From NCBI GenBank assembly GCA_030753015.1, contig JASMDC010000045.1, forward strand, positions 1-27,569: a DNA stretch of 27,569 nt. Direction: 5' to 3'. The first letter of the stretch is position 1. Each line of letters starts with the position of its first letter. Both the position numbers and the translations under genes were made by a program. The notes under the pieces are model-generated. The model was given only the letters and a program-made list of their open reading frames with translations, was not told the DNA's origin and searched no databases. This document shows, in pieces, positions 199-27,569 of the stretch. This DNA is from Candidatus Undinarchaeales archaeon (GTDB lineage: Archaea; SpSt-1190; JASMDC01).

Positions 199-384
199 TG
201 CTCTTTCCCTGTCCCCCACCATGTCTTTATTGGATGAAGTGGTATTGCAGTGTTTAATACAATAGGGGGCTGGTGTGCCGGTACTCGTCCGGAAAGTACC
301 TTCCGGGCCCGTCCCTACCAACTCGGAAGGGGATGTCCCGCCGAAACAAAAAAAGAGTTAAACCTGCAGCGCCTTGTTTCGTTC
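199..384. other. Non-coding region between tnpB and the first radical SAM gene, with overlapping inverted repeats
   Basis: No convincing gene. It would contain the left end of the TnpB element if the element starts here. Three overlapping stems can be drawn: 280-284 with 296-300 (GGTAC/GTACC), 289-294 with 301-306 (CCGGAA/TTCCGG), and 299-305 with 324-330 (CCTTCCG/CGGAAGG). They cannot all form together. IS200/IS605-type ends are known to carry hairpins, so these are candidates for an element end, but no boundary or target site can be proved. Bases 358-362 are the TATA-like box of the next gene. Confidence 0.4.
357..363 (+). promoter_or_regulatory. TATA-like box for the B12-radical SAM gene
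   Basis: GTTAAAC lies 25 bases (centre to start) before the ATG at 385, so transcription should start at about the ATG. This favours 385 over the longer reading that begins at a GTG at 250. Confidence 0.5.
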
Positions 385-1773: not shown

Positions 1774-1776
1774 GTG

Positions 1777-1796
1777 TTACTACTACCCCGTGGTAA
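1777..1796. promoter_or_regulatory. Inverted-repeat operator, copy A
   Basis: TTACTAC (1777-1783), six-base spacer, GTGGTAA (1790-1796): seven-base arms with one mismatch. It lies directly upstream of the TATA box of the gene at 1832. Nearly the same element occurs at 2847-2865 in front of the winged-helix protein gene, and I find it nowhere else in the window. Probable binding site for that protein (inference). Confidence 0.6.
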
Positions 1797-1797
1797 A

Positions 1798-1828
1798 CTA
1801 TATAAAGGATGATAACAATAGTTATCAT
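1798..1828 (+). promoter_or_regulatory. TATA box plus perfect palindrome at the transcription start
   Basis: CTATATAAAG (1798-1807) is a strong TATA box, centred about 29 bases before the GTG at 1832. Between the box and the start is a perfect inverted repeat, ATGATAAC (1809-1816), AATA, GTTATCAT (1821-1828). A protein bound there would block initiation, so it is a likely second operator. Confidence 0.6.
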
Positions 1829-1831
1829 TAG

Positions 1832-2539
1832 GTGCGAAACGTGGTATTTGAGAGGATCCCTGTGGCGTACGGTGCTGTCAAGGATAAGATCGTCGATCAT
1901 TACCAGAAGCACGACGATCTCTACAATTCCATCGGTACGGTCGGAGTCGGCATCAGTGCCTTCTTGGGTGCACGGTACGGCCTCCAGGCTTCCGGGTGCG
2001 AGGAGTATCTCGCAACGCACATGCCCGTGTTCCAGAACTACGCTAACGCCATCGCCCACGGCACTACCTCGTTCATCGCGGCCGCCGGTGCCAAGGTCCC
2101 CGCCAAGATGGGGATGCGATACCTGACAAAGACGTTCAAGAAGGGCCAAGGCAAGCACGAAATAGCAGAGGAGTTCGGCCTCGAGGGGAGCCGTGAGCTG
2201 GCCCACGAGACCGTGGACGCTCTCTTCAGCGAGGCGGCGCAGACCGGGCTCGCCCACTACGCCATCGGAACCCCCGTGAGCATCACTGACGCCAAGGAGC
2301 TCTACAACGGGGTCAAGTCCGAGGTCAAAGGGTACCGGGAGCGCAAGGCAAACAGGCAGAAGGACGATTACTCAGCACCCACACCACCCGCCGAGTCCCT
2401 GGACAACATGCTCGACGAGATGGCGGTGGAAGCGGGCTCCGGGACCTCTGGCGGTCCCACCGGCTACCGCATCGAGAAGGCCGGCGACTACGTCGACCGG
2501 CTCCGCGAAGGCATGGAAGAGCGCGGCTTCCCCTTCTGA
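1832..2539 (+). CDS. Unknown protein, 235 aa, under dual-operator promoter
   Basis: I do not recognise a family. The protein starts MRNVVFERIPVAYGAVKDKI. A glycine-rich weakly hydrophobic segment (IGTVGVGISAFLGARYG, about residues 33-49) and a second one (HGTTSFIAAAGAKVPAKMG, about 74-92) could contact membrane. Helical sequence with many acidic and basic residues follows (GKHEIAEEFGLEGSRELAHE), and a hydrophilic proline/serine/glycine-rich region leads to the C-terminus. The GTG start at 1832 sits 29 bases from a strong TATA box, implying a leaderless mRNA; a GTG at 1841 is an alternative. Two palindromes flank the TATA box, one shared with the winged-helix gene at 2902, so the two genes are probably co-regulated. 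It ends just before the tandem-repeat region. Function unknown. Confidence 0.7.
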   Translation: MRNVVFERIPVAYGAVKDKIVDHYQKHDDLYNSIGTVGVGISAFLGARYGLQASGCEEYLATHMPVFQNYANAIAHGTTSFIAAAGAKVPAKMGMRYLTKTFKKGQGKHEIAEEFGLEGSRELAHETVDALFSEAAQTGLAHYAIGTPVSITDAKELYNGVKSEVKGYRERKANRQKDDYSAPTPPAESLDNMLDEMAVEAGSGTSGGPTGYRIEKAGDYVDRLREGMEERGFPF

Positions 2540-2570
2540 GTTACACTCCTAGATTCTTTAACGCCTCTTG

Positions 2571-2812
2571 TGGCACGCTATAGTGCGACATATAGGATCA
2601 TTTCTCGGATACGATGGGGCGACCGTGATGTTTTCCAGCATCCCTGTTGCCCCCTGCGTCGCTTAGATGGAACGCTATGGTGCGACACATAGGATTATTT
2701 CCCGGACACGATGGGACGACCGTGAGGTTGTCCGGCGTCCCTGCTGCTCCCAGCGCCGCTTATGGCACGCCATAGTGCGACACATAGAATACTTCCCTGG
2801 ACACGGCGGGGG
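2571..2812. repeat. Imperfect tandem repeats of 95-97 bp (two full units and one half unit)
   Basis: Units start at 2571, 2668 and 2763; the third stops matching near 2812. Units 1 and 2 are visibly similar along their whole length. Each starts with a short hairpin whose eight-base loop GTGCGACA is identical in all three copies. The stem is CTATA/TATAG in unit 1 and CTATG/CATAG in unit 2, a paired change that keeps base pairing; in unit 3 two pairs are broken. A second block (CGATGGG-GACCGTGA) and the unit ends (CG-CGCTT) are also conserved. No open reading frame explains them. They fill the 362-base gap between the unknown gene and the winged-helix gene. Confidence 0.75.
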
Positions 2813-2846
2813 CAATCGAAACAGTGATTAAGGTGTATTATAATAA

Positions 2847-2865
2847 TTACTACTCCCGGTAGTAA
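2847..2865. promoter_or_regulatory. Inverted-repeat operator, copy B
   Basis: TTACTAC (2847-2853), five-base spacer TCCCG, GTAGTAA (2859-2865): perfect seven-base arms. It lies just upstream of the TATA-like box (CATATAA, 2872-2878) of the winged-helix gene, matching the placement of copy A at 1777-1796. This suggests autoregulation by the winged-helix protein. Confidence 0.65.
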
Positions 2866-2871
2866 AGAGAG

Positions 2872-2878
2872 CATATAA
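2872..2878 (+). promoter_or_regulatory. TATA box of the winged-helix gene
   Basis: CATATAA centred 27 bases before the ATG at 2902; supports that start and a leaderless transcript. Confidence 0.5.
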
Positions 2879-2901
2879 CCGATAAAATACTACTATATAC
2901 A

Positions 2902-3576
2902 ATGTGGCAGGAGCGGGTTCCTCGCGAGGGCGTGGTCCGTTTTCTCAGAAACCACGGCCCGACCAGTACTGCGGACCTCGCCGCTCATTTCAACTGCTCC
3001 AAGCGCACCATATTCCGCAAGCTCGAGAGTAGCGGTCACCTTTCCTGCTATAATACCAACAGCACCATGCTCGGATTGCCCGAGACCATGGACTTCGACG
3101 AGGATGGGCTCTGGAATTGCCAGGGTGTCCGTTTCTCCCGGTGGGGGACCGTCGCGGCGACCATCCCCGAGCTCGTCGCGGCCAGCTCTGGTGGTCTCAC
3201 CCTCACCGAGCTCAGACGAACGCTCCATATCATAGTCCACGCCCATATCACCACCTGCGTGAAGGAGGCAGCTATCGTAACGGCCGGACGTCGTGGTAGG
3301 TCCGTGTACTGCAGCACCGATCCCGTCCGGCGTCGACAGCAACTGGCGAACCGTGGCCGGTTGTCCTGGGACCGTCGAATACCGGCCCGCGCTCCGTCCC
3401 CGAGGACCCTCGTCCGTGTGCTCCTGTCCGTCCTCGAGCATCACGATCTCTCTCGTGGAGTGCTGTTGGCCGCCTTGGCCTCGATACGTACAGCCGAGAA
3501 CGAGGCGACGGTGCGCTGGATCCTGGATGTGTGCAGAAGAAGTGGTAAAGGACACGGTAGGGCGATAGCTTTATGA
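2902..3576 (+). CDS. Winged-helix DNA-binding protein, probable local regulator
   Basis: 224 residues. Residues ~8-50 form a clear helix-turn-helix: VVRFLRNHGPTSTADLAAHF, then NCSKRTIFRKLESSGHL, the DeoR/MarR-like pattern in which the recognition helix is followed by a short wing. The middle region (GLWNCQGVRFSRWGTVAATI, then SSGGLTLTELRRTL) may form a second winged helix. I recall related helix-turn-helix proteins near mobile elements in bacteria, but cannot confirm that here. The C-terminal ~80 residues are arginine-rich and unassigned. The start is fixed by the TATA box at 2872-2878. The operator at 2847-2865 overlaps the upstream edge of the promoter and is shared with the gene at 1832, so the simplest reading is a repressor controlling itself and that gene. 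Direct target binding is inference. Confidence 0.75.
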   Translation: MWQERVPREGVVRFLRNHGPTSTADLAAHFNCSKRTIFRKLESSGHLSCYNTNSTMLGLPETMDFDEDGLWNCQGVRFSRWGTVAATIPELVAASSGGLTLTELRRTLHIIVHAHITTCVKEAAIVTAGRRGRSVYCSTDPVRRRQQLANRGRLSWDRRIPARAPSPRTLVRVLLSVLEHHDLSRGVLLAALASIRTAENEATVRWILDVCRRSGKGHGRAIAL

Positions 3577-3599
3577 ACGGGCTCCCGCTGGCCAAAAGC

Positions 3600-3607
3600 T
3601 ATTTAAA
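3600..3607 (+). promoter_or_regulatory. TATA box deciding the carbamoyltransferase start
   Basis: TATTTAAA ends only five bases before the ATG at 3613, too close for that codon to be transcribed, but is centred about 27 bases before the ATG at 3631. The second ATG is therefore the likely start. Confidence 0.6.
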
Positions 3608-3630
3608 AAACCATGCAGCGCTCAGAACCG

Positions 3631-5322
3631 ATGGCGGTGCTCGGGCTATGTGACGGCCACGATTCCGGTGCCGCTGTGTTCATCGACGGCAAGGTCGCTG
3701 CAGCGTGTAACGAGGAGCGCCTCACACGCGAGAAGTTCCAGACGGGGTTCCCGCGCAACTCCATCCTCGAGTGCCTCCGAACGGCAGATCTCGCTCCCGG
3801 GGACGTCCGTCATGCGATCCTTGCATCGCACATGACCCCGTCGCTCCCCCTCCGTCTATCTCAACGTACCTATAAGGCACAGCGGAAGGACCTGTCCGCC
3901 TTTGGACTAACCATGGACCTCTACCGCAGCTACCAAGTGCTCTCAACGAAGCTGCCGGGCATACGCTCCATCGAGAGTACCGGTGCCGCGGCCGTGGTGC
4001 GCCGCAGGCTCGCGGGGCTCGACATCCAAGCCCCCTTGGACATGGTCGACCACCACGCGGCCCATGCCGCGGCCGCCTACCACACCGCCGGTCTGGACGA
4101 GGTCCTGGTCATCACCATGGACCACATGGGCGACGGTCTCTCGGCCAGCGTGTCCGTCGGGTCCGGGGGTCATCTCGAGCGCATCCACACCGCCGATGCC
4201 GGCCACGGTGTCGGAGGCTACTACTCCGAGTTCACCGAGCTCTTGAAGTTCCGGCCCGGACGGCACGAGGGCAAGGTCGTCGGACTGGCGGCAAAGGGCA
4301 ATCCCGCCACGGTCCTGAGCGAGATGCGCGAGGTGCTCACCTACAGCGACGGCCAGTTCAACGTGATCAACAACCTCAAGCGTTCCCGCCCCGGCCTGTT
4401 CGAGCTGTTCCAGAGGACGGACCGGGCAGACGTGGCGGCCGCCGTGCAGACGGTGCTCGAGGAGTGCGTGTGCGCCTTCGTCTCCGACTGGGCACGACGA
4501 CGTAACCTGCCGCACCTCGCCCTTGCGGGCGGGCTCTTCGCCAACGTCAAGCTCAACCAGCGGCTCCACGAGCTCGACTGTGTCGAATCAGTGTACGTCC
4601 ACCCGCACATGGGCGACGGAGGGCTGGGTTTCGGTGCCGCGGCATCGTTCGCCTGCAAGGACACGGCCCCCACGACCATGACGTCGGCGTACCTCGGGCC
4701 CAGGTACGGGGAGGAGGAGATGGAGCAAGCGCTCAAGGAGGCCAAGCTCGAATACAAGCGGGAGCGGGACATCGATCGGATGGTGGGGCTCCTGCTGGCC
4801 GACGAACGGGTCGTCGCCCGGTACACGGGACGGATGGAGTACGGGCCCCGCGCTCTTGGGAACCGCAGCATCCTCTACTCGGCGAGCGACATCTCAGTGA
4901 ACGACTGGCTAAATGAAAAGCTCAAGCGCAGCGAGTTCATGCCGTTCGCCCCCTCGACCCTGGTGGAGGAGGCGCACAAGTGCTATGAAGGCATGAAGGG
5001 TGCCGAGGACGCCGCCCGGTTCATGACCATCACATTCAACTGCACCGAGTGGATGAGAGAGACCTGCCCTGGCGTGGTCCACGTGGACGGGACGGCCCGT
5101 CCCCAGCTCGTCCATTCTGACGTATCGCCATCCTACCACCGCGTGATCAGCACCTATTTCAAGGCCACGGGCGTCCCAACGATCCTCAACACATCGTTCA
5201 ACATGCACGAGGAGCCCATCGTGGCGACACCGGAGGACGCCGTGCGCGGGTTCGTGCGCGCGGGGCTCGACAATCTCGCCCTGGGACCGTTCCTCGCACG
5301 GGGGGTCGAGCGAGATGGCTGA
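3631..5322 (+). CDS. Carbamoyltransferase of the NodU/CmcH/TobZ family
   Basis: 563 residues, the usual length. The N-terminal Kae1-like domain starts GLCDGHDSGAAVF and has the metal-binding DHHAAHAAAAY (H141, H142, H145), then ITMDHMGDG, GLAAKGNP and LALAGGLFANVKLNQRL. The C-terminal domain has RMEYGPRALGNRSIL, MPFAPS and PTILNTSFNMHEEPI. Known members transfer a carbamoyl group from carbamoyl phosphate, via carbamoyl-adenylate, to a hydroxyl on antibiotics, Nod factors or surface sugars. All key motifs are present, so it should be active; the acceptor is unknown. Its last codons overlap the start of the next gene by eight bases (ATGGCTGA), so the two are translationally coupled and probably act on the same product. 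An ATG at 3613 is excluded by the TATA position. Confidence 0.93.
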   Translation: MAVLGLCDGHDSGAAVFIDGKVAAACNEERLTREKFQTGFPRNSILECLRTADLAPGDVRHAILASHMTPSLPLRLSQRTYKAQRKDLSAFGLTMDLYRSYQVLSTKLPGIRSIESTGAAAVVRRRLAGLDIQAPLDMVDHHAAHAAAAYHTAGLDEVLVITMDHMGDGLSASVSVGSGGHLERIHTADAGHGVGGYYSEFTELLKFRPGRHEGKVVGLAAKGNPATVLSEMREVLTYSDGQFNVINNLKRSRPGLFELFQRTDRADVAAAVQTVLEECVCAFVSDWARRRNLPHLALAGGLFANVKLNQRLHELDCVESVYVHPHMGDGGLGFGAAASFACKDTAPTTMTSAYLGPRYGEEEMEQALKEAKLEYKRERDIDRMVGLLLADERVVARYTGRMEYGPRALGNRSILYSASDISVNDWLNEKLKRSEFMPFAPSTLVEEAHKCYEGMKGAEDAARFMTITFNCTEWMRETCPGVVHVDGTARPQLVHSDVSPSYHRVISTYFKATGVPTILNTSFNMHEEPIVATPEDAVRGFVRAGLDNLALGPFLARGVERDG

Positions 5323-6766
5323 CGTCATCCTAGTCCAGCCAAAGGCCGGCGGGTATTCAGAGACCGTCCAGCGTCCCATGCTACCGCTCGCCCTCCTGGC
5401 CGCTGCACGCCGGATCGTGGGAACCCGGTCGGTACGCATCATCGATATGCGGGTGGACGACAACTGGCGTGGGCGTCTGGAGACCATCCTTTCCACCGAG
5501 CCCGTGTGCGTGGGCATCACGTCCATCACCGGGAGCCAGCTCAGGTCGGCCGTGAAGGCGGCCAGCTTGGTGCGTGAGCAGGGTGACGTGCCCATCGTGT
5601 GGGGTGGCGTGCACGCAAGCCTACTGCCCGACCAGACGCTCGCCAGCGGGCTTGCCGATGTTGTCGTTATCGGGGACGGGGATGAGACGTTCCCCCGGCT
5701 CGTCGACGCCCTTGCAGAAGGGCGTGACCTGAGCAGGATCGACGGTATCGCGTTCAGGAAGGGCAAGCGCACCGTGCACACCAAACCTGCACCCTTCGTG
5801 GACCTGGACGAACAGCCCGACCTCCCGTACAACCTGGTCGATATCGAGGAGTACGTTCAGATGTACGACGGCAGGCGCACACTGGTGGTCCAGACGTCAC
5901 GCGGATGCCCCCACTCGTGCAGGTTCTGCGTGAATCCCTGCTACAACAGCTCCAAGTGGCGGGGCCAGAGCGCTGACCGGGTTCAGGATGTGTTCGCTTC
6001 GATGCGCGAACGTTTTGGTGTCGAGAACCTGTGGCTAGCGGACGATAACTTTTTCGTCGACATGTCACGAGCTCGCGCAATCGCACGGGGGCTGGTGGAG
6101 TCGGGCTCGGAGCTCACCTGGGAGGTCCCGGGCACGCATGCCACCTCTGTGCTGGCCATGCGCGAGGGCACCCTTGGCCTGATGCAGAACGCCGGATGCC
6201 GTCGCATGTACATCGGGGTGGAGTCCGGCTCGGACCGCGTGCTAAAAGCCATCGGCAAGACCATCACCGTCGACAAGGTGCTGAAGGCCAACAAGCTTTT
6301 AGCCGACACGGAGATCATCCCCACCTACAACTTCATCCTCGGGTTCCCCGGAGAGACCGGCGAGGAGGTCCAGGCCACCATCGATCTTGTGTTCCGCCTC
6401 CTTGACGAGAATCCCCAGGCCGAGGTGGCACCGCTGTACTGCTTCACCCCCTACCCCGGCACCGTCCTCTACGACGAGGCTGTGGAGGCCGGGTTCGAGC
6501 CACCCGGCGACCTCGATGGATGGGCCGACTTCGAGTGGAGCAGGCTCAACGTCCCGTGGCTCGACGAGGAGCAGCGCAGACGGCTTGAATCACTGTACTT
6601 CTACTCGCTCTTCCTTGACCGGAAGTACCGCCATGACCTGGACTCGCCCCAGCTGCAGGCGCTAGCGCGAATCTACTCGCCCGTCGCCCGGGCACGTGTG
6701 CGGAACATGTTCCTGGACGCGCCGCTCGAGCTGAAGCTGAAGCGGTGGCTGCTCGGCGGGCCGTGA
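5315..6766 (+). CDS. B12-binding domain radical SAM protein (2 of 3), coupled to the carbamoyltransferase
   Basis: 483 residues. The N-terminal cobalamin-binding-type domain (MADVILVQPKAGGYSE, then VGITSITGSQ and VWGGVHASLLPDQTL, VIGDGDETF) is followed by a radical SAM domain with SRGCPHSCRFC, giving C198, C202 and C205, and by WLADDNFF, IGVESGSDR and LGFPGETGE. It is a close structural match to the protein at 16095-17573 (same order of motifs, VLVQP start, VWGG-H and V-GDG-t/e), so the two look like paralogues. The eight-base overlap with the carbamoyltransferase means it is made from the same message. Family members carry out methylations, cyclisations and other radical reactions on lipids or natural products; no DxHxxG motif is visible. 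The substrate is unknown, though shared with the carbamoyltransferase is a reasonable guess. Confidence 0.9.
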   Translation: MADVILVQPKAGGYSETVQRPMLPLALLAAARRIVGTRSVRIIDMRVDDNWRGRLETILSTEPVCVGITSITGSQLRSAVKAASLVREQGDVPIVWGGVHASLLPDQTLASGLADVVVIGDGDETFPRLVDALAEGRDLSRIDGIAFRKGKRTVHTKPAPFVDLDEQPDLPYNLVDIEEYVQMYDGRRTLVVQTSRGCPHSCRFCVNPCYNSSKWRGQSADRVQDVFASMRERFGVENLWLADDNFFVDMSRARAIARGLVESGSELTWEVPGTHATSVLAMREGTLGLMQNAGCRRMYIGVESGSDRVLKAIGKTITVDKVLKANKLLADTEIIPTYNFILGFPGETGEEVQATIDLVFRLLDENPQAEVAPLYCFTPYPGTVLYDEAVEAGFEPPGDLDGWADFEWSRLNVPWLDEEQRRRLESLYFYSLFLDRKYRHDLDSPQLQALARIYSPVARARVRNMFLDAPLELKLKRWLLGGP

Positions 6767-6814
6767 GGTCAGAGATTTAATACATCGCCGCCGGTGCGGT
6801 AAGGAGGCTCTGCC

Positions 6815-7372
6815 ATGTCACGTGCTCCTCTCACCGCACTCATCATCGTCATCCTGCTGGCGGCTCCCGCCCTCGGTGCCATGGCGGCCCTGCCCGATGA
6901 GGTCATCACGTCTCAGACCGAGCTCATCGTGGTGGGCGATGTCGTCTCGGTCACGAAGCTCGGGGAGGATACGGGGCGCGAGCACTACATCGCCGTGCTG
7001 GGCGTCGACGAGGTGGAGAAGGGGGAGGTGCCTGATGACCTGCGAGTGCGGTTCTTCATACCGATAGGCGACGAACTCCCGCCGGGCACGCTCTCCGACG
7101 CGATATACGGTGTGGGGGACCGGATCAGGGCCCATCTACAGAAGGACAATCGGGCGGATGCCTTCCACGATCCCTCGACCTACGTGACCGTGGAGCACTT
7201 CCAGGGATTGCATGTGCTCCAGCGGGCCACTCCGCGTCCTGTTCCTTCGTTGGTGACGGGCACGGCCTCACCGGGACCTGGCGGAAAAGGGGCGGACCCG
7301 TCTGTGGGCTTGCTCATCGGGGTGCTCCTACTCGGAGTGGTCCTGGGCGTGCTCAGGGCGAGGATGCGCTAG
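6815..7372 (+). CDS. Small exported protein with C-terminal membrane anchor, unknown function
   Basis: 185 residues. An N-terminal signal segment (LTALIIVILLAAPALGAMA) is followed by a ~110-residue soluble domain of alternating hydrophobic strands (TELIVVGDVVSVTKL, HYIAVLGVDEVEKG, LRVRFFIPIGD, VGDRIRAHLQK). A Pro/Gly/Ser/Thr linker and a C-terminal hydrophobic segment with basic end (LLIGVLLLGVVLGVLRARMR) complete it. That last arrangement resembles archaeosortase-type C-terminal anchors, with PGPGG before the hydrophobic stretch, but the exact motif is not present. The start has a strong Shine-Dalgarno AAGGAGG at 6801-6807, seven bases before the ATG, and a TATA-like TTTAATA at 6776-6782, so this gene has its own promoter with a short leader. 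The domain resembles a small beta barrel; I do not recognise the family. Confidence 0.8.
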   Translation: MSRAPLTALIIVILLAAPALGAMAALPDEVITSQTELIVVGDVVSVTKLGEDTGREHYIAVLGVDEVEKGEVPDDLRVRFFIPIGDELPPGTLSDAIYGVGDRIRAHLQKDNRADAFHDPSTYVTVEHFQGLHVLQRATPRPVPSLVTGTASPGPGGKGADPSVGLLIGVLLLGVVLGVLRARMR

Positions 7373-7414
7373 GACTGGGGACCGACAGCGGCCTCCTGCA
7401 CCATGACGAGCGGT

Positions 7415-7945
7415 CTACTCGTCGATCATCCGCAGGTAGAGCTCCAGAAGCTGCTCCATCGGCTGCTTGATCTCGTCCATCCCGCCGAGCCTGTCCACGA
7501 AGTTGCCCATGGTCTCCTTGGCCCTGGCGATGACCTCGTCCTTGGGAGTGTCGTCGGGCAGGTCGCCCAGCTTCTCCTGGATGTAGTCGCCAAATAGGTC
7601 CGAGGCGGCAGCGAGCTTGTAGGTGAGCTCGATGGTGGTGGAGAACTGGTCGCGGATCGCCTCCCGCTTGTCTCCGAGCAAGGCCAGTTCGTCGCGACCG
7701 TCGTAGGCGCTCTGGAAGGCTGTGAGCCCGTAGGCCACCGTGTCGATGAGGACGTCGATGCGTGTGTCGATGTCCGGCTCATGGATGTTGCCGTACTTGT
7801 CCTCGAACTCGGGGCCCTCCACGTAACCCTGGATGGCCTCCTGGGTCTCCATCATGACATTTGCAAGTGCAAGGCCCACGGTCATCTGCTGACTCTGGTC
7901 GAGACCGGCGACGGCCTCCTGTATATCCTCCTCTAGTCCGTACAT
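7415..7945 (-). CDS. Unknown helical protein, 176 aa
   Basis: The frame stays open to 8140, but the likely start is the ATG at 7945 (MYGLEEDIQEAVAGLDQSQQ). It has AGGAGAT about nine bases upstream, and a TATA box (TTATAA at 7987-7992) lies about 44 bases upstream, leaving a short leader. The sequence is soluble, acidic and almost entirely helical (QQMTVGLALANVMMETQEAI, AAASDLFGDYIQEKLGDL, MEQLLELYLRMIDE), without metal-binding or catalytic motifs that I recognise. It follows the Tes-like enzyme on the same strand, and its TATA box begins before that gene's stop codon, so it has its own promoter and may also be reached by read-through. A partner or adaptor role is possible but unsupported. Confidence 0.75.
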   Translation of the reverse strand: MYGLEEDIQEAVAGLDQSQQMTVGLALANVMMETQEAIQGYVEGPEFEDKYGNIHEPDIDTRIDVLIDTVAYGLTAFQSAYDGRDELALLGDKREAIRDQFSTTIELTYKLAAASDLFGDYIQEKLGDLPDDTPKDEVIARAKETMGNFVDRLGGMDEIKQPMEQLLELYLRMIDE

Positions 7946-7994
7946 GATAATAATCTCCTGATGACCCGCCCGGCCCTGGAGGTCTCTTATAAGT

Positions 7995-9380
7995 CTAGAC
8001 TTGGGGTGTGCCCACTTCCGTGCTATTATCGGCCCGCAGGTCACGCTCGCGGTGGAAGTTGCTGGCCCACAGTGTGGGGAAGGTACCGTCGTCCACGGTG
8101 ATCTCCCCGCCGATGCAGAACTTGGAGGCTTGGGCGTCATAGGTGTACGGATCGCACACCGAGCCGAAGGCCAGGATCAGGGAGCGTGTGGACATCGTTG
8201 CGCCAGTGAACCGTTCGCCGTACACGATGCGGTGGAGCGTGGTCGAGATCGCGTCACGGAGCAACGGCCATGCCCGTGGCCGGAGCAGGTGGGGGAGCAT
8301 GGACAGCACCAGGAACGGTGTGGCCAGCGAGCTGCCCTTGACACGGCGGTCCTTGTACACCTCGAGCGCAGGCTGGATGGCCGCAAGGTCGATGAGCTCG
8401 CCCACCATGCGGAACCCGTCCTTGGCGTTGGTGTCACGCAGCACCAGATAGTAGTGGTTGAACAGGCACCGGTGCATGCGCAGGATGTCGTAGAAGGCGA
8501 TGAGCGCGCGCTGGAAGTTCAGTACGTCCTGTCGGGAGAACCGTCCGTCGAAGCGCTCGATGAGCACGTCCATGAGGTCCTCGGGCGTGACCTTGAGGTC
8601 CACGTCGACACCTGCCTTGCCCAGGTATGAATAGGATTTGAAGAGTACTGCGCGCACGTTCGGCCGCTTGACCGCTTCCTCGAAGATATCACCCACCTGG
8701 TCGAGGTTCAGGTCGCGGACGTGGGTGGTCTCGAGCACGGTTGCCACGCCTGCCTCCTGGAGGACGTCCATGGCCTTCCGCCTGTTGTCGGCCATCGGTG
8801 CACCCCTGAGCACTAGAGCGCCCTTGTCATCGTACCCGTCGAACTGCATGTGGACTACCTCGAGCCCGGCTTTCAGGAGCCCGTCGAGGTAGTGAGGGTC
8901 CTTGAGCTTGATACCGTTCGTGTAGAGGGCCGGGATGTTGCCGGTGCGGCGGATTAGCCTGATGATGTTCATCAGGTCGTCGCGCATGGTCGCTTCGCCT
9001 CCCCACAGCCCGATCTTGAAGTTCTTGAAGTCCTTGATGGTCCTCTCGATCTCTTCCAGGGTGGGCTCCCGCTTGGGTGCGTTGGCGTCCGTGAGGCAGA
9101 TGGGGCAGTTGAGGTTGCAGCGCAGGGTCATGTAGTAGTTGTAGTAGTTGAGGATGCGCTCGGGGCCCTCGCGTCCGGGGGGGAAGAGGATGGGAAAATA
9201 GTAGTCGGAGAGCTCCTTGTAGTAGGTGGAATCGCGGGAGAGCAACCCCTTGGCCTCGCCATGGTCGGGGCACTCTTTTACCTGGTAGACCTTGTCATCC
9301 TCCTCGATTATCTGGACGGGAAGGTCCTTCATGCACGTGGGACAGAAGCCTCGCGTCTCGCGTAGCACGGTCCCGGGCAT
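7995..9380 (-). CDS. Radical SAM protein of the tetraether-lipid-synthase-like (COG1964/MJ0619) type
   Basis: 461 residues. The N-terminus has CPTC at 13-16 and ECPDHGE at 36-42 around a VYQVK strand, the zinc-binding-like module typical of MJ0619/Tes relatives. The radical SAM cluster motif is RCNLNCPIC (C88, C92, C95), followed by WGGEATMRDDL and LYTNGIKL. Tes joins two archaeal lipid tails by radical coupling and normally has an extra cysteine cluster between the N-terminal module and the radical SAM motif. Here that stretch (YYFPILFPPGREGPERILNYY) has no cysteine, so it is probably a different branch with another lipid or cell-envelope substrate. Other cysteines near the C-terminus (VCDPYTY, KFCIGGE) may bind a second cluster, SPASM-like. 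The TATA box at 9404-9410 is centred 27 bases before the ATG, so the mRNA should be leaderless. Confidence 0.85.
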   Translation of the reverse strand: MPGTVLRETRGFCPTCMKDLPVQIIEEDDKVYQVKECPDHGEAKGLLSRDSTYYKELSDYYFPILFPPGREGPERILNYYNYYMTLRCNLNCPICLTDANAPKREPTLEEIERTIKDFKNFKIGLWGGEATMRDDLMNIIRLIRRTGNIPALYTNGIKLKDPHYLDGLLKAGLEVVHMQFDGYDDKGALVLRGAPMADNRRKAMDVLQEAGVATVLETTHVRDLNLDQVGDIFEEAVKRPNVRAVLFKSYSYLGKAGVDVDLKVTPEDLMDVLIERFDGRFSRQDVLNFQRALIAFYDILRMHRCLFNHYYLVLRDTNAKDGFRMVGELIDLAAIQPALEVYKDRRVKGSSLATPFLVLSMLPHLLRPRAWPLLRDAISTTLHRIVYGERFTGATMSTRSLILAFGSVCDPYTYDAQASKFCIGGEITVDDGTFPTLWASNFHRERDLRADNSTEVGTPQV

Positions 9381-14638: not shown

Positions 14639-15466
14639 ATGGCAGATCAAAAGGTCTCAAACATCGCTCTCCTCGTCGATTATGACAACATGGCCATCGG
14701 GGTCGAAACCACGTTCAAGAAAGAGCGGTTCGATGTCACCAAGGTCATCGACACGATCCGCGACCGGGGTCGTCTCATCATCAAGCGCGCCTACGCCGAC
14801 TGGAAGCGGTGGGGACGCTGGTACCAGGATACCCTGACGTCCAGCGCCGTGGAAATGGTCCATCTCCCCACCCATCCCGGATCCAACAAGAACAATGCCG
14901 ACATACGCATCGCAGTGGACGCGTTGGAGATCGTGTACCAGAACCCGCTCATCGACATCTTCGTCATCCTCTCGGGCGACTCGGACTTCGCTCCGATGGT
15001 CTCCCGCCTGCGCGAGAACGGCAAGTACGTCATAACCGTGGGTGTCAAGGATCGCACCTCCGCCCTCCTCATCTCGAACTCGGACGAGTTCATCTCATAC
15101 GATTCGATGCTGGGGACGGTCAAGCAGGACGCGGACGCCGGGTTCAAGATCCTAGTGGATGTCCTGAGCACGACCGATGGGGAGGATATCCGCCTCTTCG
15201 GTATCAAGAACCACCTTCTGCGCAAGGATCCCTCGTTCAACGAGCGGGAGTACGGGTTCAAGCAGTTCAAGGCCTTCGTGAAGGAGGCTGCGAACCGCGG
15301 ATACATCGAGCTCAAGGACGATGCCAGAGGCAATCCCATCCTCGTACCGAAGACCTCGGATAGGACTGCGGATAGGACTGCGGATAGGACTGCGGATAGG
15401 ACTGCGGATAGGACTGCGGAGAAGACCACAGATAAACCCACGCGAAACAGACGCCGGCGTCGCTAG
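14639..15466 (+). CDS. NYN-domain (LabA/DUF88-like) protein with LOTUS domain and repetitive basic tail
   Basis: 275 residues. The N-terminal NYN/PIN-like nuclease fold has LLVDYDNMAIG (D14, D16, N17), NKNNADIRIAVDAL (D88, D94) and ILSGDSDFAPMV (D114, D116), the acidic residues of family members thought to cut RNA. Residues ~165-235 form an OST-HTH/LOTUS-type module (FKILVDVLSTTDGEDIRLFG, FKQFKAFVKEAANRGYIEL), which in other proteins binds RNA. The C-terminal tail is five perfect DRTA repeats (241-260) and ends RNRRRRR. Start fixed by the TATA box; leaderless. Likely an RNA-processing or RNA-decay protein. The tail repeats are identical at DNA level and hence a slippage site. Confidence 0.88.
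   Translation: MADQKVSNIALLVDYDNMAIGVETTFKKERFDVTKVIDTIRDRGRLIIKRAYADWKRWGRWYQDTLTSSAVEMVHLPTHPGSNKNNADIRIAVDALEIVYQNPLIDIFVILSGDSDFAPMVSRLRENGKYVITVGVKDRTSALLISNSDEFISYDSMLGTVKQDADAGFKILVDVLSTTDGEDIRLFGIKNHLLRKDPSFNEREYGFKQFKAFVKEAANRGYIELKDDARGNPILVPKTSDRTADRTADRTADRTADRTAEKTTDKPTRNRRRRR
15359..15418 (+). repeat. Five perfect copies of a 12-base tandem repeat inside the NYN gene
   Basis: The unit GATAGGACTGCG is repeated five times without a single change, and encodes DRTA each time. Perfect identity suggests recent expansion and possible copy-number variation between strains. Confidence 0.9.
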
Positions 15467-16094: not shown

Positions 16095-17573
16095 TCAGGA
16101 GCACTTGGCATCGTATCCCAGACGGTAGGCCATCTCCTCGGCGCCCATGAGGTCCGTGTTCAAGTTGAAGAACCTCTTGCGTGCTATCGGCCGATAGAGC
16201 CGATAGAGGATGCGGATGACCGGGTCCCCGATGAAGTCCAGCTTGTCATCGGTGAACGAGGAGAGCATGTAAAGGCGTCTGAGCAGCGCTGCGCGCTCCG
16301 GCGTCACCCATGGGAATGAGTGGTCGAGACCATCCTGCAGCACCGCATAAGCGTCGTACCGCGCCCATCCCTCCAGCGAGTCGGGAGGGACCAGACCGTG
16401 TCGCTTAGCCTCGGCCAGATAGGTCGAGTTCGGGTAGGGGATCACAGGATTGAGGGCGGTGGTCGAGGCGCGCGGGTTCTCGTCCAAGAGGGTGTGCATG
16501 AGCCGGACGGTGTCAGCAAGCTCTTCCTCGGTCTCGCCCGGGAACGCGGTCATGAAGCAGTACCGTGGATGGAACGAGTAACGGGCGATCCGCCGGTTAA
16601 AGGGGACCACGGTATCGATCCTGAGGCCCTTCCTGATCGAGTCAGCGATCCGTTGGGAGCCGGTCTCCACGCCGATGACGACGTCGGCCATCCCGGCCCG
16701 CGCCACCAAGGCCAGCTCGTCATCGGTGAACCGGGACATACCGGTGACATGGGCCTCTGCCTCCCAGAGGATGTCCAGTCCGCGGTCCACGAAACCCTGA
16801 CAGATATCGAGCATGCGCCGTCGATCGACGAAGGCGTTCTGCTCGGCGAACCACACGAATCCCAGGTTGAACCGCTCCACCGCGGAGGTCACCAGGTCCA
16901 GGGCCCGCGGCGCTGACATGCCGCGCCATCTTCCGTTGCACTCCACGGGCGAGAAGCAGTAGGTGCACTGGTAGGGACAACCACGCGAGGTGCAGAGGCT
17001 TATACAGCGTCGGTTCCTGCGTCGGATGATGTACTTCTCGATGTCCACCAGGTGGAAGGGCGGATCGGGGATATCGTCGAGGTCCGTGTGGGGACGGCGC
17101 GGGTTCACGTGCACCGCGTCACCCTCCGCGTACACGATGCCCTTCACCGAGGACAGGGGCCTACCCGTCTCCAGAGCGTTCACGAGGTCCTCCAAGGTGT
17201 ACTCGCCATCGCCCACGACGGCCACGTCCACCAACGGATGGCTGACGGTGCCTTCAGGATCGAGAGTGGGATGGGGACCACCCCACACGACAGGGATCTC
17301 GGGGTCCTCTTCCTTCACCACCGCTGACGCGGCGAGCGCACCCGTGATCTGGACGCCTGTCATGGCCGTGATGCCCACGCAAGTGGGCCCCGAGCGCACA
17401 GCGGCACGCAGCTCGCCCTCCCAGTCACGGGTGGTGCGCTGGTCGAAGAGGACGACCTGGTGGTCCTGGGCCACCACCGAGGCGGCCGCGAGGAGGGAGA
17501 TGGGGAGCGTGGAGCGGTCGAGCAGCTCGTCGAGCATGGCGATATGCGGCTGGACAAGCACGATGTCGCTCAT
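16095..17573 (-). CDS. B12-binding domain radical SAM protein (3 of 3)
   Basis: 492 residues. It shares the architecture of the protein at 5315-6766: MSDIVLVQPHIAMLDELL, VGITAMTGVQI, VVWGGPHPTLDPEGT and VVGDGEYTLEDL in the cobalamin-binding-type domain, then SRGCPYQCTYC (C199, C203, C206), WFAEQNAFVDR, VIGVETGSQR and FMTAFPGETEEEL in the radical SAM domain. These two are paralogues; the 385-1773 protein is more distant. The start: a TATA-like box (TATATTAA, minus strand, 17610-17616) gives a ~14-base leader with GGAGG nine bases before the ATG at 17573; the longer reading to 17594 adds MEREDDP and is unlikely. Substrate unknown. Confidence 0.9.
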   Translation of the reverse strand: MSDIVLVQPHIAMLDELLDRSTLPISLLAAASVVAQDHQVVLFDQRTTRDWEGELRAAVRSGPTCVGITAMTGVQITGALAASAVVKEEDPEIPVVWGGPHPTLDPEGTVSHPLVDVAVVGDGEYTLEDLVNALETGRPLSSVKGIVYAEGDAVHVNPRRPHTDLDDIPDPPFHLVDIEKYIIRRRNRRCISLCTSRGCPYQCTYCFSPVECNGRWRGMSAPRALDLVTSAVERFNLGFVWFAEQNAFVDRRRMLDICQGFVDRGLDILWEAEAHVTGMSRFTDDELALVARAGMADVVIGVETGSQRIADSIRKGLRIDTVVPFNRRIARYSFHPRYCFMTAFPGETEEELADTVRLMHTLLDENPRASTTALNPVIPYPNSTYLAEAKRHGLVPPDSLEGWARYDAYAVLQDGLDHSFPWVTPERAALLRRLYMLSSFTDDKLDFIGDPVIRILYRLYRPIARKRFFNLNTDLMGAEEMAYRLGYDAKCS

Positions 17574-17618
17574 AGGATCATCCTCCCGCTCCACCTGAGA
17601 TGATGGGTGTTAATATAC

Positions 17619-22063: not shown

Positions 22064-23225
22064 GTACGGACTTCTGGCCCTGACCAGGGACCGGCCCCTG
22101 CTCTTCCTGGCACTGGTGCTGCCCATCGCCACCATGATGCTGGGCGGGATCGTGTTCTCCCACGGTCTTGCGAACGTGCCCCTGTGCATCACTAACGAGG
22201 ATGTTGGATCGTACGGAGCCAAGCTCGTGACCGAGTTCGACCGCTCGGCCCGTTTCGACATGACCGAGACCGACCGCGCAACGTGCGACGCGATGCTGCG
22301 TGATGGTACCGTGGCCGCCACGGTCGCTGTGGAGGCGAACCACACCGGTCGCCTGTCCGCAGAGGGTAGGGTCGATGCGACGGTAACTGTAGACAACTCC
22401 CTTCCCTTCCTGGGATGGCTCACCATGCTCGAGTGCCGGAAGGTGCTGTACGCCCACCTCCTGGACACGTTCGCCAACGATCCGCCACCGGCCCTCCTCC
22501 ACATGCGTGAGAACGATCCGTTCCTCAGCTGGGTGTACGGGCAGGTGTCCGCCTTCATCACGCCCGAGCGGGTGTACTTCATAATCGGTGCACTGCTGGG
22601 GACACAGGAGCGCCTGGTCCACCTCGATCCCGTGTTCCTGCACTACTACCTGCCCGGCCTCCTAACCATCGCGGTTGTGTTCACTGCAACGACCCTCGCG
22701 TCCATCCTCGTCGTGCGGGACCGCGAGGACGGTAGCCTCACACGGCTCCTGGCAAGCCCCCTCACACCGGGGGAGTACCTGGCGTCGCGCATGGCCGTGG
22801 CCCTTCTCATGTCGCTCGTCCAGATCACTATCATACTTGCAGTGCTCGGCTGGTACCTGGGTAGCAAGCTCTCCCTGCTATCGCTTTTCGCAGTGCTCGC
22901 AGTGCTCGCTCTGGCCTCCTGCGCTCTGGGCATACTCGTGTCCACCATGGCAGGCAACGCCCTCCACGCGCTGGAGGTCGCAGTGCTCATCATAGTAGTC
23001 CAGATCCTCCTTGGCTCCATGGTGTTCCCGAACGTCATCATGCCCGACGCTGTACGCTCGATCGAGCCTCTGCTCCCCGCCACCCACTCCGTCGCCGCCC
23101 TGCGAGAGGTCATCCTCTGGAAGGAGCCTGCGGGCGCACAGGGGCCTATGAGCACGCTCGTGGTCCTGGCAGCGTTGTGGTGGGGGGCCGCCTGGATGCT
23201 GCTGACGTACCGCGAACAGCGCTAG
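22035..23225 (+). CDS. ABC-2 type transporter permease
   Basis: 396 residues, the usual length. One N-terminal membrane helix (YGLLALTRDRPLLFLALVLP) is followed by a large extracellular domain of about 180 residues, then five C-terminal helices (for example LLTIAVVFTATTLASILVV, MAVALLMSLVQITIILAVLG, LFAVLAVLALASCALGILV, ALEVAVLIIVVQILLGSMVF and LVVLAALWWGAAWMLLTY). The region RDREDGSLTRLLASPLTPGE is the typical ABC-2 exporter coupling element that meets the ATPase. The start ATG at 22035 overlaps the ATPase gene by 29 bases and lies just after GGTGATGAAGG. It ends with TAG at 23223-23225, sharing CTAG with the stop of the convergent large protein gene. Confidence 0.92.
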   Translation: MSARTYWATRYGLLALTRDRPLLFLALVLPIATMMLGGIVFSHGLANVPLCITNEDVGSYGAKLVTEFDRSARFDMTETDRATCDAMLRDGTVAATVAVEANHTGRLSAEGRVDATVTVDNSLPFLGWLTMLECRKVLYAHLLDTFANDPPPALLHMRENDPFLSWVYGQVSAFITPERVYFIIGALLGTQERLVHLDPVFLHYYLPGLLTIAVVFTATTLASILVVRDREDGSLTRLLASPLTPGEYLASRMAVALLMSLVQITIILAVLGWYLGSKLSLLSLFAVLAVLALASCALGILVSTMAGNALHALEVAVLIIVVQILLGSMVFPNVIMPDAVRSIEPLLPATHSVAALREVILWKEPAGAQGPMSTLVVLAALWWGAAWMLLTYREQR

Positions 23226-26200
23226 AAATCCCACTGGTTGTCGTCGCTCACGTCAGAGTAGTCCATCGCTTGCTGGTTCCATGCGGGCTCCTGCTCGCCC
23301 CATCCCTGGCTCTGCTCTTGTTCGCCCCAGGACTGGCCCTGTCCCTGGTCGCCCCAGCCTGCCTGGGAGGATGCACCCTCCCAGCCACCGCTCTGGGCAT
23401 AGCCTTCTCCAGTGTATCCCTCGCTCCCGCCCTGCTCGTAGTATCCCTCGTACGGATCGGGCTGCAACTCGGTGACCCACCGGCTCGCCAGCACGACGGC
23501 AAGGAGCACGACACCCATGACGACGGAACCGGCTGTAGCGTACAACCTGAGCATGTTCCCGGTCTCGACGTCAGGGAGCGTTCTGATGAGAGAGGCGGAC
23601 TGTTCGACGAGCTGCATCGCCCGTTCAACGTTACCCTCTGCCATCATTCGTTCAGCCTCCTCCAGCAGGCCCTTTGAACGCTCGAACACGACCGCGCTCT
23701 CACCTGAGAGCGAGAGCTTCTCGATGGCGGCGAGCTGGTTGATAGCTACCTCGTGGGCGAGCTCCAGCCGCTTCGTGTCGACCTTCACGGTAGACTCAAC
23801 GGAATAGGGTAGCTTCTCCTTGTCGATCCAAGTGAGTTTGTTCCCCGAGCGCTCATCAGGCTCCGGATCTGGTTCCACCGTATCGAAGGTGGCAATCGCC
23901 GAGTCCTCGAACTTTATCGTCGTTGTGCGCCCGAGGATCGGACCGCTGAGCAGGAATACCTTGTTCGACTCCTCCATGAGGTCCGCCAGCTCAACTGTTG
24001 CCGATAACCTTTGTGCATAGATGGAGAGCGTTCCGGACAGCGGACGTGGTATATGATAGGGAGCTTCCATGTTAACGGCAAGAGTGAGATTGCCGATGAG
24101 GGGATCTATGTTCGCACCCTTAGCGCCGAACTTGAACTCCTGGCCCGATGACCGCGGTCCCGTGGAGAAACTGAGATAGGTCATATCGATTCTGAGAGCG
24201 CTGGTCACGATATCCGAGATCAGTACGCAGCGTGCTGTGCATTCGGTACCGGTAGCGAGCTCAGCTAACATGGATGAGACTCCTGAATCCCGATAGCGTC
24301 GTCGCTGCACCTTGCTCTCTTCGCACGATTTCAGGCAGGACCGACGGAGGGATGCTCCCACGGACGACACGTCATAGTCCACATGCTCGAAGGAGCCGAT
24401 GCCACGGACCTCTACCGTATCGTTCACTATGATGAAGAAGGAGGTGCTCCCCTCACGGAGTATCGGGATGCCGGATGGTGCGTCCGCAAGCTTCATGATG
24501 GGTTCGATCACCTTGTCCAGGTTCTGCGCCTCTAATGTGAGAGAAGCACGAACGGTACCTACCTCCTGTACGGTGTAGAAGTCGAGCTTGAACTCCAGCG
24601 CCTGAAGGGCCGTTGCCAGCTCTTCGCGCACTTCGGCCTTGGCCTCGGACACGAAGATGTCCGGCCAGTTGATAAGGTCCACTTCAATGTACCCATCCTT
24701 GGCGATGTACCGCTCGACCTGGGTGGCCACCCCCTGTCGCAGGAACTGCTTGTTCATGTCCTCGAGCATCATCTCGGCAGGTGCGCCGGGGATCTCAGGG
24801 GAGGCGAGCTCCACGGTCAGGGTTCCCTCCTTTACTTCTAATGCAAGGGTGATATCTGGCATCTCACCCGGGTTCGCGAACGCGGTGGCGCCTGTGATGT
24901 CCACGCTCGACCGGGTGGTCGTAGCGTTCACGTCGAACCAGAACGAAGGGAAAGGGAAGAACATCCGTCGGGCGTATGGATCGTCAGGGATTAGATTGAG
25001 AGAGGCGTTGAACTCGTAGCTCATCCTCTTTCCGTCCGAGCTGTAGAACAGGTCGGCCCTCCCGATCCGCTCCTCCAGGGGTGCCCAGCCATCGGACTCG
25101 ATAGCGAAATCGCTCTGGAGGTCCGCTGTCACGTCGAAGCTGAAGCCCTTGGGTGAGTTGATCGGGCCCGTCATATTGAGCAGCCCCGTGTTGTCCGTGC
25201 GGACGAGCAGGTCACAGGTCTCGATGTATTCTTTCTCGTTACGGGGTGGCCGGCAGTCGTCAGGGCAGTTGTACAGGTCCTCGAACCGGTGGTCACACAG
25301 TCCATCACCGCACTCCTCCCTGCGCATGAGCTCCTTGTCAATGCTCGTTGTTTCTTTCCGCATCCGTCCAGTTGCCGTTGTAGGCCCTGCATCGACACAG
25401 TAGTAACGCTCGCGGTTACAGATCTTGTCCTCATGGCAGTCAGCGTTCGACCTGCAGCAGGTCTTTCCCTGGAGGCAGCACACGGTGCCGCAATTGCTGG
25501 AGAAGCACTCTTCATTTGAGTAGCAACGCTGGCCGTTGGGTCGCTGGACGACCTCCTCTAGCGGTGGGGGCGTAGGTGTGGCAAGACGCTGGAATCCTAT
25601 ACCATTGATTCTATCCAGTGCTTTGAGCATTTCGGAATCTGGACGCGGAGGACCTATCTCGTTCCTGAGGAGCTCAATGACACTTCTAGTTGACGTGATC
25701 CCGTGCGTGATAGCTGCTATCTGATCATCGATCGTGACCATGAACTTGGGTGTCTTGCTGATCCCGGCCTTTTCAGCATCGATGACGAGTCGTGCGACCT
25801 CGAACTCCTTCGATCCGCTCTCAAAACAACGGATGAAGGTGTCCGCATCTGGCACTACCAGAAGTGCTAAATCTGCAATTGCGGCGACATGGTCAATTTC
25901 GATTTTTCCAGCGAGCCCCTGCAGCAATTCGTCGCCCTGACCTTGATCCTTGGCACATAGGTACGCCTCGGTTGCCTTGAGCGAGAGCGGATCAGCGGCA
26001 TCCGGGAGCGGCTTGAACTCGTACGTGATGACGTTCCTGTACATGATGCGTGTGATTCTGATCTCCTTTAGTGTCTCCCCGATACGCAACGGGTCCATGT
26101 ACTCGACGATAGTGACCTTCTTCCCGGGCGGTTGAGGGGTCGGTTTTCCGATGTCGGAGACCTGCGGTGTGGAAGGGGGACGCGTGGGCTCAGGTAAAAG

Positions 26201-27569
26201 GTCCGGTATCTCCAGGTCATCTTCCGGGATATCGGGGATCTCAAGGTCATCATCGGAAATATCGGGCACCTCGAGAGCGTCGTCGATTATTTCTAGATCC
26301 TCGTCATCGATCACCGCATCCTCGACGCAATAGTGCCGGTCGCTGCAAACGTTACCTGGCGGGCAGTCGGTGGTCGAGAAGCAGCACTCCATCCCTTCAA
26401 CACAGCATGCCCCATTGTCACAGTTACCGCTATGGCACTGGTCGCTGGCGGTACAGGGGGAGCCATTGGAGCGTTTGGAAGGCGCCTCGGACGGCACGGG
26501 TGTTGGTTCGGGCGTGCTCTCCGGACGGGCAGTGGGTACTGCTGTCGGTTCAGGTGTGGGTACTGCTGTGGGCTCGGGTGTGGTCTCGATACTATCATCC
26601 TCAAAGATCAACCAGAGCTCTGCTGCATCCCCGTAGTGCTGTGTGTCATAATCCACTATAAGGGTAAGATCGCCAATTTCTCTTGTGATCAGTTCATCCG
26701 GATTCGAATAGATATACTCATAAATCGGGGAAAAATCATATTCCCACCCGGACGGTGTAACGATGAAGTAGTAGGCGACTCTCTTATCCGATCTAACTTT
26801 CGTGAGAGTGATGTTGTATCCACTATGCTCGATAGTTTCCCCCAGATTGATAAGGACCTTCTCACCAGGAACCGGTGGGCGATTGCCGCACTCACCATCG
26901 TAAACCAGCCATAGCTCGGCCGTGCTGAGAGAGTTCCACGTATCGGGTTTAATGAGAAGTGTCAGCTCGCTGATTACCTTCTTGACCTCATTCTCTTCGA
27001 TTGAATGGACGTCGTCGTAGTTCGGCGAGAACATATGCGTTTGCCCGGACGGATCCACGATCTCGAAGAAGGCCGTGTTCGAACCGCTCGCGACATCATT
27101 GAGCGTGATCTTGTACCCACAGAAATCCGTGTTCCTTCCTTTGTGGATCACCTTCTTCTGCCCGGGAACGGGTGTGGGTCTCGGTGTGGGTACGGGAGTC
27201 GGTACGGGTATGACATCCGGAGGTTCTATAGAAGCCTCCTCCCCGCACGCCTCCACATTGGTGAGCGTACCATAGATAGCACCGAACACCGGCCAGCCGT
27301 CAGAATACCCATAGAGGACCGTGACCTCGTTGATGCCCGAGACGTCCGCCATCAGCTCACAGTCCTTCGATGCTTGGTTCTCCGCAAGCTCACAAGATGT
27401 CAGCGATTCCTGGACCCATTTTCCAGCAAGAGATGCACTATTGCGGGAGCAGACCTCGCGGTCCCCATTGTCGCAAGCGATAGTGCCGTCGAACACCGCG
27501 AGAGTGGTCGGTTTCCGGTCGAAGGGTGCGGGATTGTTGGAGATGCGCCCCTTGAACGTGAACGTGTCG
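23222..27569 (-). CDS. Giant cysteine-rich surface protein with C-terminal membrane anchor and low-complexity tail (5' end outside the window)
   Basis: At least 1448 residues; the frame is open to the right edge with no stop, so the GTG at 27496 is not the true start. Numbering from the edge: Pro/Thr linkers; two similar beta domains of about 90 residues at ~138-227 and ~234-323 (shared pattern GY-ITL, PSG...FSP, LTLI/LLI, AELWL); a Pro/Thr linker; a cysteine-knot domain ~367-415; acidic DLEIPD repeats ~433-460; a second cysteine-knot domain ~674-724; and a CGDGLCDHRFEDLYNCPDDC motif ~751-773. A long beta-rich part follows, then a helical, probably coiled segment ~1276-1338. A membrane helix (~1343-1365, MGVVLLAVVLAS) ends in an 83-residue Gly/Gln/Ser/Trp/Tyr-rich cytoplasmic tail. 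Likely a cell-surface adhesin or structural protein. Confidence 0.85.
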   Translation of the reverse strand, partial: DTFTFKGRISNNPAPFDRKPTTLAVFDGTIACDNGDREVCSRNSASLAGKWVQESLTSCELAENQASKDCELMADVSGINEVTVLYGYSDGWPVFGAIYGTLTNVEACGEEASIEPPDVIPVPTPVPTPRPTPVPGQKKVIHKGRNTDFCGYKITLNDVASGSNTAFFEIVDPSGQTHMFSPNYDDVHSIEENEVKKVISELTLLIKPDTWNSLSTAELWLVYDGECGNRPPVPGEKVLINLGETIEHSGYNITLTKVRSDKRVAYYFIVTPSGWEYDFSPIYEYIYSNPDELITREIGDLTLIVDYDTQHYGDAAELWLIFEDDSIETTPEPTAVPTPEPTAVPTARPESTPEPTPVPSEAPSKRSNGSPCTASDQCHSGNCDNGACCVEGMECCFSTTDCPPGNVCSDRHYCVEDAVIDDEDLEIIDDALEVPDISDDDLEIPDIPEDDLEIPDLLPEPTRPPSTPQVSDIGKPTPQPPGKKVTIVEYMDPLRIGETLKEIRITRIMYRNVITYEFKPLPDAADPLSLKATEAYLCAKDQGQGDELLQGLAGKIEIDHVAAIADLALLVVPDADTFIRCFESGSKEFEVARLVIDAEKAGISKTPKFMVTIDDQIAAITHGITSTRSVIELLRNEIGPPRPDSEMLKALDRINGIGFQRLATPTPPPLEEVVQRPNGQRCYSNEECFSSNCGTVCCLQGKTCCRSNADCHEDKICNRERYYCVDAGPTTATGRMRKETTSIDKELMRREECGDGLCDHRFEDLYNCPDDCRPPRNEKEYIETCDLLVRTDNTGLLNMTGPINSPKGFSFDVTADLQSDFAIESDGWAPLEERIGRADLFYSSDGKRMSYEFNASLNLIPDDPYARRMFFPFPSFWFDVNATTTRSSVDITGATAFANPGEMPDITLALEVKEGTLTVELASPEIPGAPAEMMLEDMNKQFLRQGVATQVERYIAKDGYIEVDLINWPDIFVSEAKAEVREELATALQALEFKLDFYTVQEVGTVRASLTLEAQNLDKVIEPIMKLADAPSGIPILREGSTSFFIIVNDTVEVRGIGSFEHVDYDVSSVGASLRRSCLKSCEESKVQRRRYRDSGVSSMLAELATGTECTARCVLISDIVTSALRIDMTYLSFSTGPRSSGQEFKFGAKGANIDPLIGNLTLAVNMEAPYHIPRPLSGTLSIYAQRLSATVELADLMEESNKVFLLSGPILGRTTTIKFEDSAIATFDTVEPDPEPDERSGNKLTWIDKEKLPYSVESTVKVDTKRLELAHEVAINQLAAIEKLSLSGESAVVFERSKGLLEEAERMMAEGNVERAMQLVEQSASLIRTLPDVETGNMLRLYATAGSVVMGVVLLAVVLASRWVTELQPDPYEGYYEQGGSEGYTGEGYAQSGGWEGASSQAGWGDQGQGQSWGEQEQSQGWGEQEPAWNQQAMDYSDVSDDNQWDF

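Follow-up and report, generated by a model that had tools for sequence, protein, structure and literature searches.

A mosaic archaeal surface protein with an aromatic- and glutamine-rich tail that is probably disordered and cytoplasmic

The stretch of DNA analysed here (hereafter the window) is a whole contig, C57, of 27,569 nucleotides from a Candidatus Undinarchaeales archaeon, and it ends within the gene of a giant surface protein, in which a mosaic ectodomain, a stalk, one membrane helix and a low-complexity tail can be recognized. This tail is no one-off, as comparable tails are carried by a genome-wide set of large surface proteins. Then, what can such tails do beneath the cell surface? 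We tentatively propose, with a probability of about 0.45, that disordered multivalent tails cluster or tether surface proteins from the inside. Every sequence feature named in the initial annotation is present in the minus-strand frame 23222-27568, and a thioredoxin-fold domain, a link to the S-layer, a paralogue on contig C55 and the stalk are additions made here.

The assembly is of metagenome type, with 3.85 Mb in 117 contigs, 98.92% completeness and 5.01% contamination. The organism is assigned to archaea because of the kinship table, a PF05124 S-layer protein and a thermosome-type motif; an archaeal SSU rRNA was looked for in the assembly and is absent. It is to be noted that nine class relatives of the comparison set have genomes of 0.6-1.1 Mb, an unusual gap from 3.85 Mb. 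We read 1.02 Mb (27%) of the genome as stretches, some of which were selected for their homology with the window protein; the 0.8 Mb not selected in this way served as an unbiased sample. Membrane helices were assigned by Kyte-Doolittle hydropathy only, and tail composition was compared with 11,450 windows of equal length from the sampled proteome of the same genome.

The gene and its mosaic ectodomain

The N-terminus of the protein is missing, since the 5′ end of the gene lies beyond the contig edge; it was sought on the other contig ends of the assembly, none of which carries it. At the opposite end, the gene terminates with TAG (23222-23224), a codon that overlaps the stop codon of an ABC-2 permease gene (Pfam) convergent with it. 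It can be argued that the tail is genuinely coding, because its last 22 residues are kept in the same frame in the C55 paralogue. The features are as follows.

23222..27568, minus strand: giant surface protein ORF, at least 1448 aa (1448 open codons), running off the contig
27245..27568, minus strand: truncated N-terminal domain (aa 1-108), of which aa 1-63 are 81-82% identical to a paralogue on contig C63
26903..27163, minus strand: S-layer-type repeat domain 1 (aa 136-222), by homology to the C25 S-layer protein
26603..26872, minus strand: S-layer-type repeat domain 2 (aa 233-322), which aligns with repeat 1 and with the C25, C31, C43 and C29 copies
26321..26473, minus strand: ten-cysteine module 1 (aa 366-416; Cys span 372-414), by Cys pattern
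26201..26308, minus strand: acidic DLEIPD repeats (aa 421-456), by sequence and TRF
25727..26119, minus strand: DsbA-like thioredoxin-fold domain with CxxC deleted (aa 484-614), by hmmsearch and hhalign
25391..25543, minus strand: ten-cysteine module 2 (aa 676-726; Cys span 682-724), by Cys pattern
25253..25318, minus strand: CGDG-x-C...CPDDC motif, CGDGLC...CPDDC (aa 751-772), by sequence
23771..25222, minus strand: membrane-proximal ectodomain family (aa 783-1266), common to the C55 paralogue only, fold unassigned
23567..23770, minus strand: alpha-helical hairpin stalk (aa 1267-1334), by profile A2, recurring before membrane helices of archaeal surface proteins
23489..23545, minus strand: membrane helix (aa 1342-1360), Kyte-Doolittle mean 2.32 over 19 residues
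23225..23488, minus strand: low-complexity tail, probably cytoplasmic (aa 1361-1448), rich in G/Q/S/W/Y/E, by composition and a single-sequence model
23225..23290, minus strand: conserved C-terminal motif EPAWNQQAMDYSDVSDDNQWDF (aa 1427-1448), Y-x2-V-x5-W-D, common to the C55 paralogue

The link to the S-layer comes from aa 105-223, which share about 60% identity with a domain in the S-layer protein that this organism encodes on contig C25. The C25 protein matches PF05124 (S_layer_C) with an E-value of 1.9e-18, and the window protein gives no match to this model. Both the window protein and archaeal PF05124 S-layer proteins are large and of secreted type; what the window protein adds are Cys-rich modules, a dead DsbA domain, a stalk, a helix and a long tail. 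The duplicated beta domains of the initial annotation correspond to the two tandem repeat domains, and the CGDG-x-C motif and the DLEIPD repeats were likewise located, the latter encoded in part by a 30-bp DNA unit at 26208-26266 (TRF). The two domains called cysteine knots are present as ten-cysteine modules, whose pattern occurs in 21 copies in the loci read from this genome, though the name cysteine knot comes from the sequence pattern only.

The thioredoxin-fold domain was found by comparison with the organism's own DsbA domains (hmmsearch E 1.9e-12; hhalign probability 97.5), with 30% identity over 129 columns. It has the fold signature of DsbA/Thioredoxin_4 and differs from these in having no CxxC: SDFQCPFCxR is aligned to MD---PL--R. 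Since CxxC is deleted, the domain is no oxidoreductase of the usual kind, and its sequence points to a role in binding or structure. Elsewhere in the genome, two membrane-anchored proteins (L034:4403-6688, plus strand; L049:124-2001, minus strand) have two DsbA-like domains apiece with CxxC intact.

Over aa 768-1360, the C55 paralogue is 39% identical to the window protein (E 8.4e-113), with which it has the ectodomain family, the stalk and the helix in common. No other full-length match to the membrane-proximal ectodomain family was found in 10 genomes of the phylum, and a search for viral relatives of the family found none. Searches against solved structures and NCBIfam gave no match of weight, and a single-sequence AlphaFold model of the C-terminal ectodomain, with a pLDDT of 33, was discarded. 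The initial annotation took the protein for a receptor or adhesin. No domain supports a receptor role; S-layer-associated surface protein or adhesin is a better label.

Other genes of the window deserve a brief mention. At 14639-15466 (plus strand), NYN nuclease and OST-HTH/LOTUS domains are joined in one protein on this archaeal contig (Pfam E 5.5e-34 and 1.1e-6). Several B12-binding/radical SAM proteins are encoded at 250-9380 and 16095-17594, and a radical SAM protein at 7995-9380 (minus strand) has an HMPTM N-terminal zinc ribbon.

Stalk, membrane helix and tail

A single C-terminal membrane helix followed by a hydrophilic tail is found in the window protein, and the sole other stretch above the Kyte-Doolittle threshold (561-579; 1.68) is part of the DsbA-like domain. 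In a single-sequence model, which is weak and alignment-free, the stalk (local pLDDT about 60-82) and the membrane segment are helical and the tail is without secondary structure. Against Pfam, the window copy of the stalk gives no match over the curated cut-off, and the remaining copies give weak matches only.

On which side of the membrane does the tail lie? The C55 paralogue has a signal peptide and the residues RRR directly after its membrane helix. In the window protein, all 38 Cys and all 7 N-x-S/T sequons are in the ectodomain and none are in the tail. The same division, with Cys and sequons ahead of the helix, holds across the proteins with such tails, apart from Cys of zinc ribbons and an occasional sequon in some of the tails, and most basic residues of these proteins fall just after the membrane helix. 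These observations agree with the surface protein with a cytoplasmic tail of the initial annotation, and we infer that the tail is disordered and likely lies inside, a topology that is well supported. If the helix is inverted or the C-terminus secreted, the tail would instead be a sticky adhesive region outside the cell. The flanks of the window protein's own helix would allow this, being nearly uncharged with one Arg before and one after and thus uninformative for topology; but the signal peptide and RRR of C55, the Cys-rich, sequon-bearing ectodomains preceding the helix across the set, and tails of the same architecture that end in zinc ribbons make an outside tail very improbable.

The tail is 83-88 aa long. 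In the last 83 residues G+Q+S+W+Y amount to 60%, against a proteome mean of 21%, and none of the 11,450 windows reaches this value, in line with the Gly, Gln, Ser, Trp and Tyr richness noticed in the initial annotation. W+Y (14.5%) is matched in 8 of these windows and Q+N (19%) in 7, and aliphatic content is 5%. In a charge-hydropathy (Uversky) plot the tail lies among disordered sequences, and part of it is encoded by a 27-bp tandem repeat. Absent from the initial annotation was its acidity: the net charge is -0.20 per residue (20% net acidic), and Arg occurs once at most. Its description as prion-like therefore stands for the low complexity and the predicted disorder, while the strong acidity, the one Arg and the modest Q+N fit yeast-prion or FUS-type composition poorly. 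Judged by its sequence, it may be better called a disordered, acidic, aromatic tail that is weakly or partly prion-like.

The C55 tail is also disordered, but it is Pro/Ala-rich and not aromatic. As for whether homologues lack the tail, the paralogue thus keeps a disordered tail with the last 22 residues and loses the G/Q/S/W/Y composition. The last ~22 residues of the two proteins align with a score of 55, which none of 5000 shuffles equalled, and the best of 728 other C-termini scored 31. A scan of the whole genome for Y-x2-V-x5-W-D gave six matches versus about four in a reversed-pattern control; the motif was seen at a frame end only in the two family members, the other four matches having been only partly checked in their own frames. 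That composition changes and the end is retained, as would be expected of a linker with a docking motif, is suggested by this one comparison of two sequences, and the last ~22 residues are likely a candidate docking motif.

Recurrence of the tails

Ten proteins of this genome, the window protein and at least nine others, have Y/W/Q-rich cytoplasmic tails; they are encoded on contigs C57, C73, C43, C34, C51 (three), C11, C29 and C27. These are large, single-pass surface proteins, mostly unrelated to one another. The C27 protein, with a Tyr/Gly-rich tail, was found with a profile of stalk and membrane helix which excludes the tail sequence. In the unbiased 0.8 Mb, Y/W/Q-rich C-termini are carried by 3 of the 12 bitopic proteins with an ectodomain of 300 aa or more and by 1 of the 571 other ORFs, for which the Fisher p of 2.6e-5 is indicative only, as thresholds were set post hoc and related ORFs are non-independent. 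The lone ORF among the 571 is itself a bitopic Cys-rich protein whose helix is below threshold. In other bitopic proteins of this genome, the tail is rich in Lys or acidic.

In relatives, one case was found in G004 of the same class, a genome sampled on account of its match: the protein at L212:6339-9623 (minus strand) combines a sequon-rich ectodomain with the stalk described above and a tail rich in Q, Y and R. No Y/W/Q-rich tails were present in the sequence read from G002 (about 417 kb), G005 (123 kb) and other archaea (360 kb). Two tails of this genome, including that of C34, and one in G022, a genome outside the class, end in apparent zinc ribbons; the G022 protein (L179:1129-3267, minus strand) has a stalk, a helix and a tail ending in zinc-ribbon-like CPSCGMRLVNGRCLRC.

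Some members of the set may be described further. One of the C51 proteins (L114:4057-16449, minus strand) is a surface protein of 4130 aa with 636 Cys, whose Q/N/G/Y/W tail ends in GLHPG-type repeats. Near it, a second Cys-rich protein of the CGDG-x-C type (L215:2752-4023, minus strand) has a Q/G/Y/W tail, and the tail of the remaining C51 protein is Y-rich. On C34 (L041:3167-4618, minus strand), an amidohydrolase-like N-terminus is joined to a Cys-rich surface module, a helix and a tail, which may be an assembly chimera.

Possible roles of the tails

In the mechanism that we propose, a large mosaic protein would be embedded in, or project through, the archaeal S-layer, with its S-layer-type repeats, Cys-rich modules and an inactivated DsbA-like, putative binding domain facing outward. 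The helical stalk and one membrane helix would span the membrane, and the disordered acidic tail, rich in aromatic residues, Gln and Gly, would lie inside. There, the tails may act as weak multivalent 'stickers' which gather or space surface proteins, or may attach them to a partner in the cytoplasm; the final 22 residues of the window protein and C55 would serve as a specific docking motif. This clustering or tethering is the conjectural part of the model. A stronger form of it, in which the shared aromatic/Gln-rich tails build a submembrane condensate or scaffold that organizes the cell surface from inside, is unlikely. Against sticker-like tails, the Pro/Ala composition of the C55 tail means that composition is not conserved within the family, which a generic spacer could explain, and an acidic tail with one Arg seems unlike typical condensate-forming tails.

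Indeed, it is quite possible, although we consider it doubtful, that the tails have a passive role as fast-drifting disordered spacers, or as anchors of charge or bulk that hold the helix, their composition arising from repeat slippage in a GC-rich genome. Tail length and composition vary even between paralogues, the polyQ/PGQQQQQ and WGEQEQSQGWGEQE stretches are obvious repeat expansions, part of the window tail is encoded by a tandem repeat, and the Lys-rich or acidic tails of the other bitopic proteins fit such a role. Passive spacers do not readily account for a Y/W enrichment well above the proteome that recurs on unrelated proteins, for the conserved C-terminal 22 residues, or for zinc-ribbon ends, which imply working cytoplasmic modules. 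Sequence does not separate stickers or tethers from passive spacers, and we favour the former. Another thought is suggested by BY-kinases (Wzc), membrane proteins with a Tyr-rich cytoplasmic C-terminus: the Tyr-rich tails might be phosphorylation or signalling substrates that couple surface binding to signalling. Tyr clusters such as YEGYYEQGGSEGYTGEGY, YNRPYYRYDYY and SDYSSYYSARQYYNYDAY and the position of the tails on the inner side speak for this. However, the window protein has another topology and gives no match to a kinase domain in Pfam or NCBIfam, the other tail proteins are also without one, and no BY-kinase in the genome passes the curated cut-off (TIGR01007, best 53 bits versus 108), which makes a substrate role improbable.

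If the tails act together as stickers or tethers, this would be a prokaryotic example of a mechanism known mainly from eukaryotic receptors, in which multivalent disordered tails organize surface proteins from within the cytoplasm; the condensate form would be comparable in principle to receptor-clustering condensates, and the proteins listed above would be a defined set for testing such organization. Even if the tails are spacers, the genome-wide pairing of a large surface protein, a helical stalk and an aromatic/Gln-rich tail was not found described in archaea. Disordered tails are known, and in Thermoplasmatota, too, a C-terminal helix can be followed by a tail rich in Pro, Gln and Tyr, which would make the architecture less novel. 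The initial annotation had supposed that a surface receptor or adhesin with a low-complexity cytoplasmic tail was undescribed in archaea, and we found no description of this architecture in the open-access literature; prion-like domains as such are already known from archaea, according to passages in PMC9676014, which cites Zajkowski (2021), and in PMC7582709, which cites the same work as a preprint.

Like prion-like and FET-type domains, the window tail is of low complexity, rich in Gly, Gln, Ser and aromatic residues and predicted to be disordered; unlike them, it is net acidic, and it belongs to a membrane surface protein, not a nucleic-acid-binding one. A much better prion-like fit than the window tail is given by the C73 tail (24% Q, 14% Y) and the C11 tail. 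The latter belongs to a surface protein (L100:2141-5257, minus strand) whose 127-aa tail, 42% Gln with PGQQQQQ repeats, is the most prion-like that we have seen.
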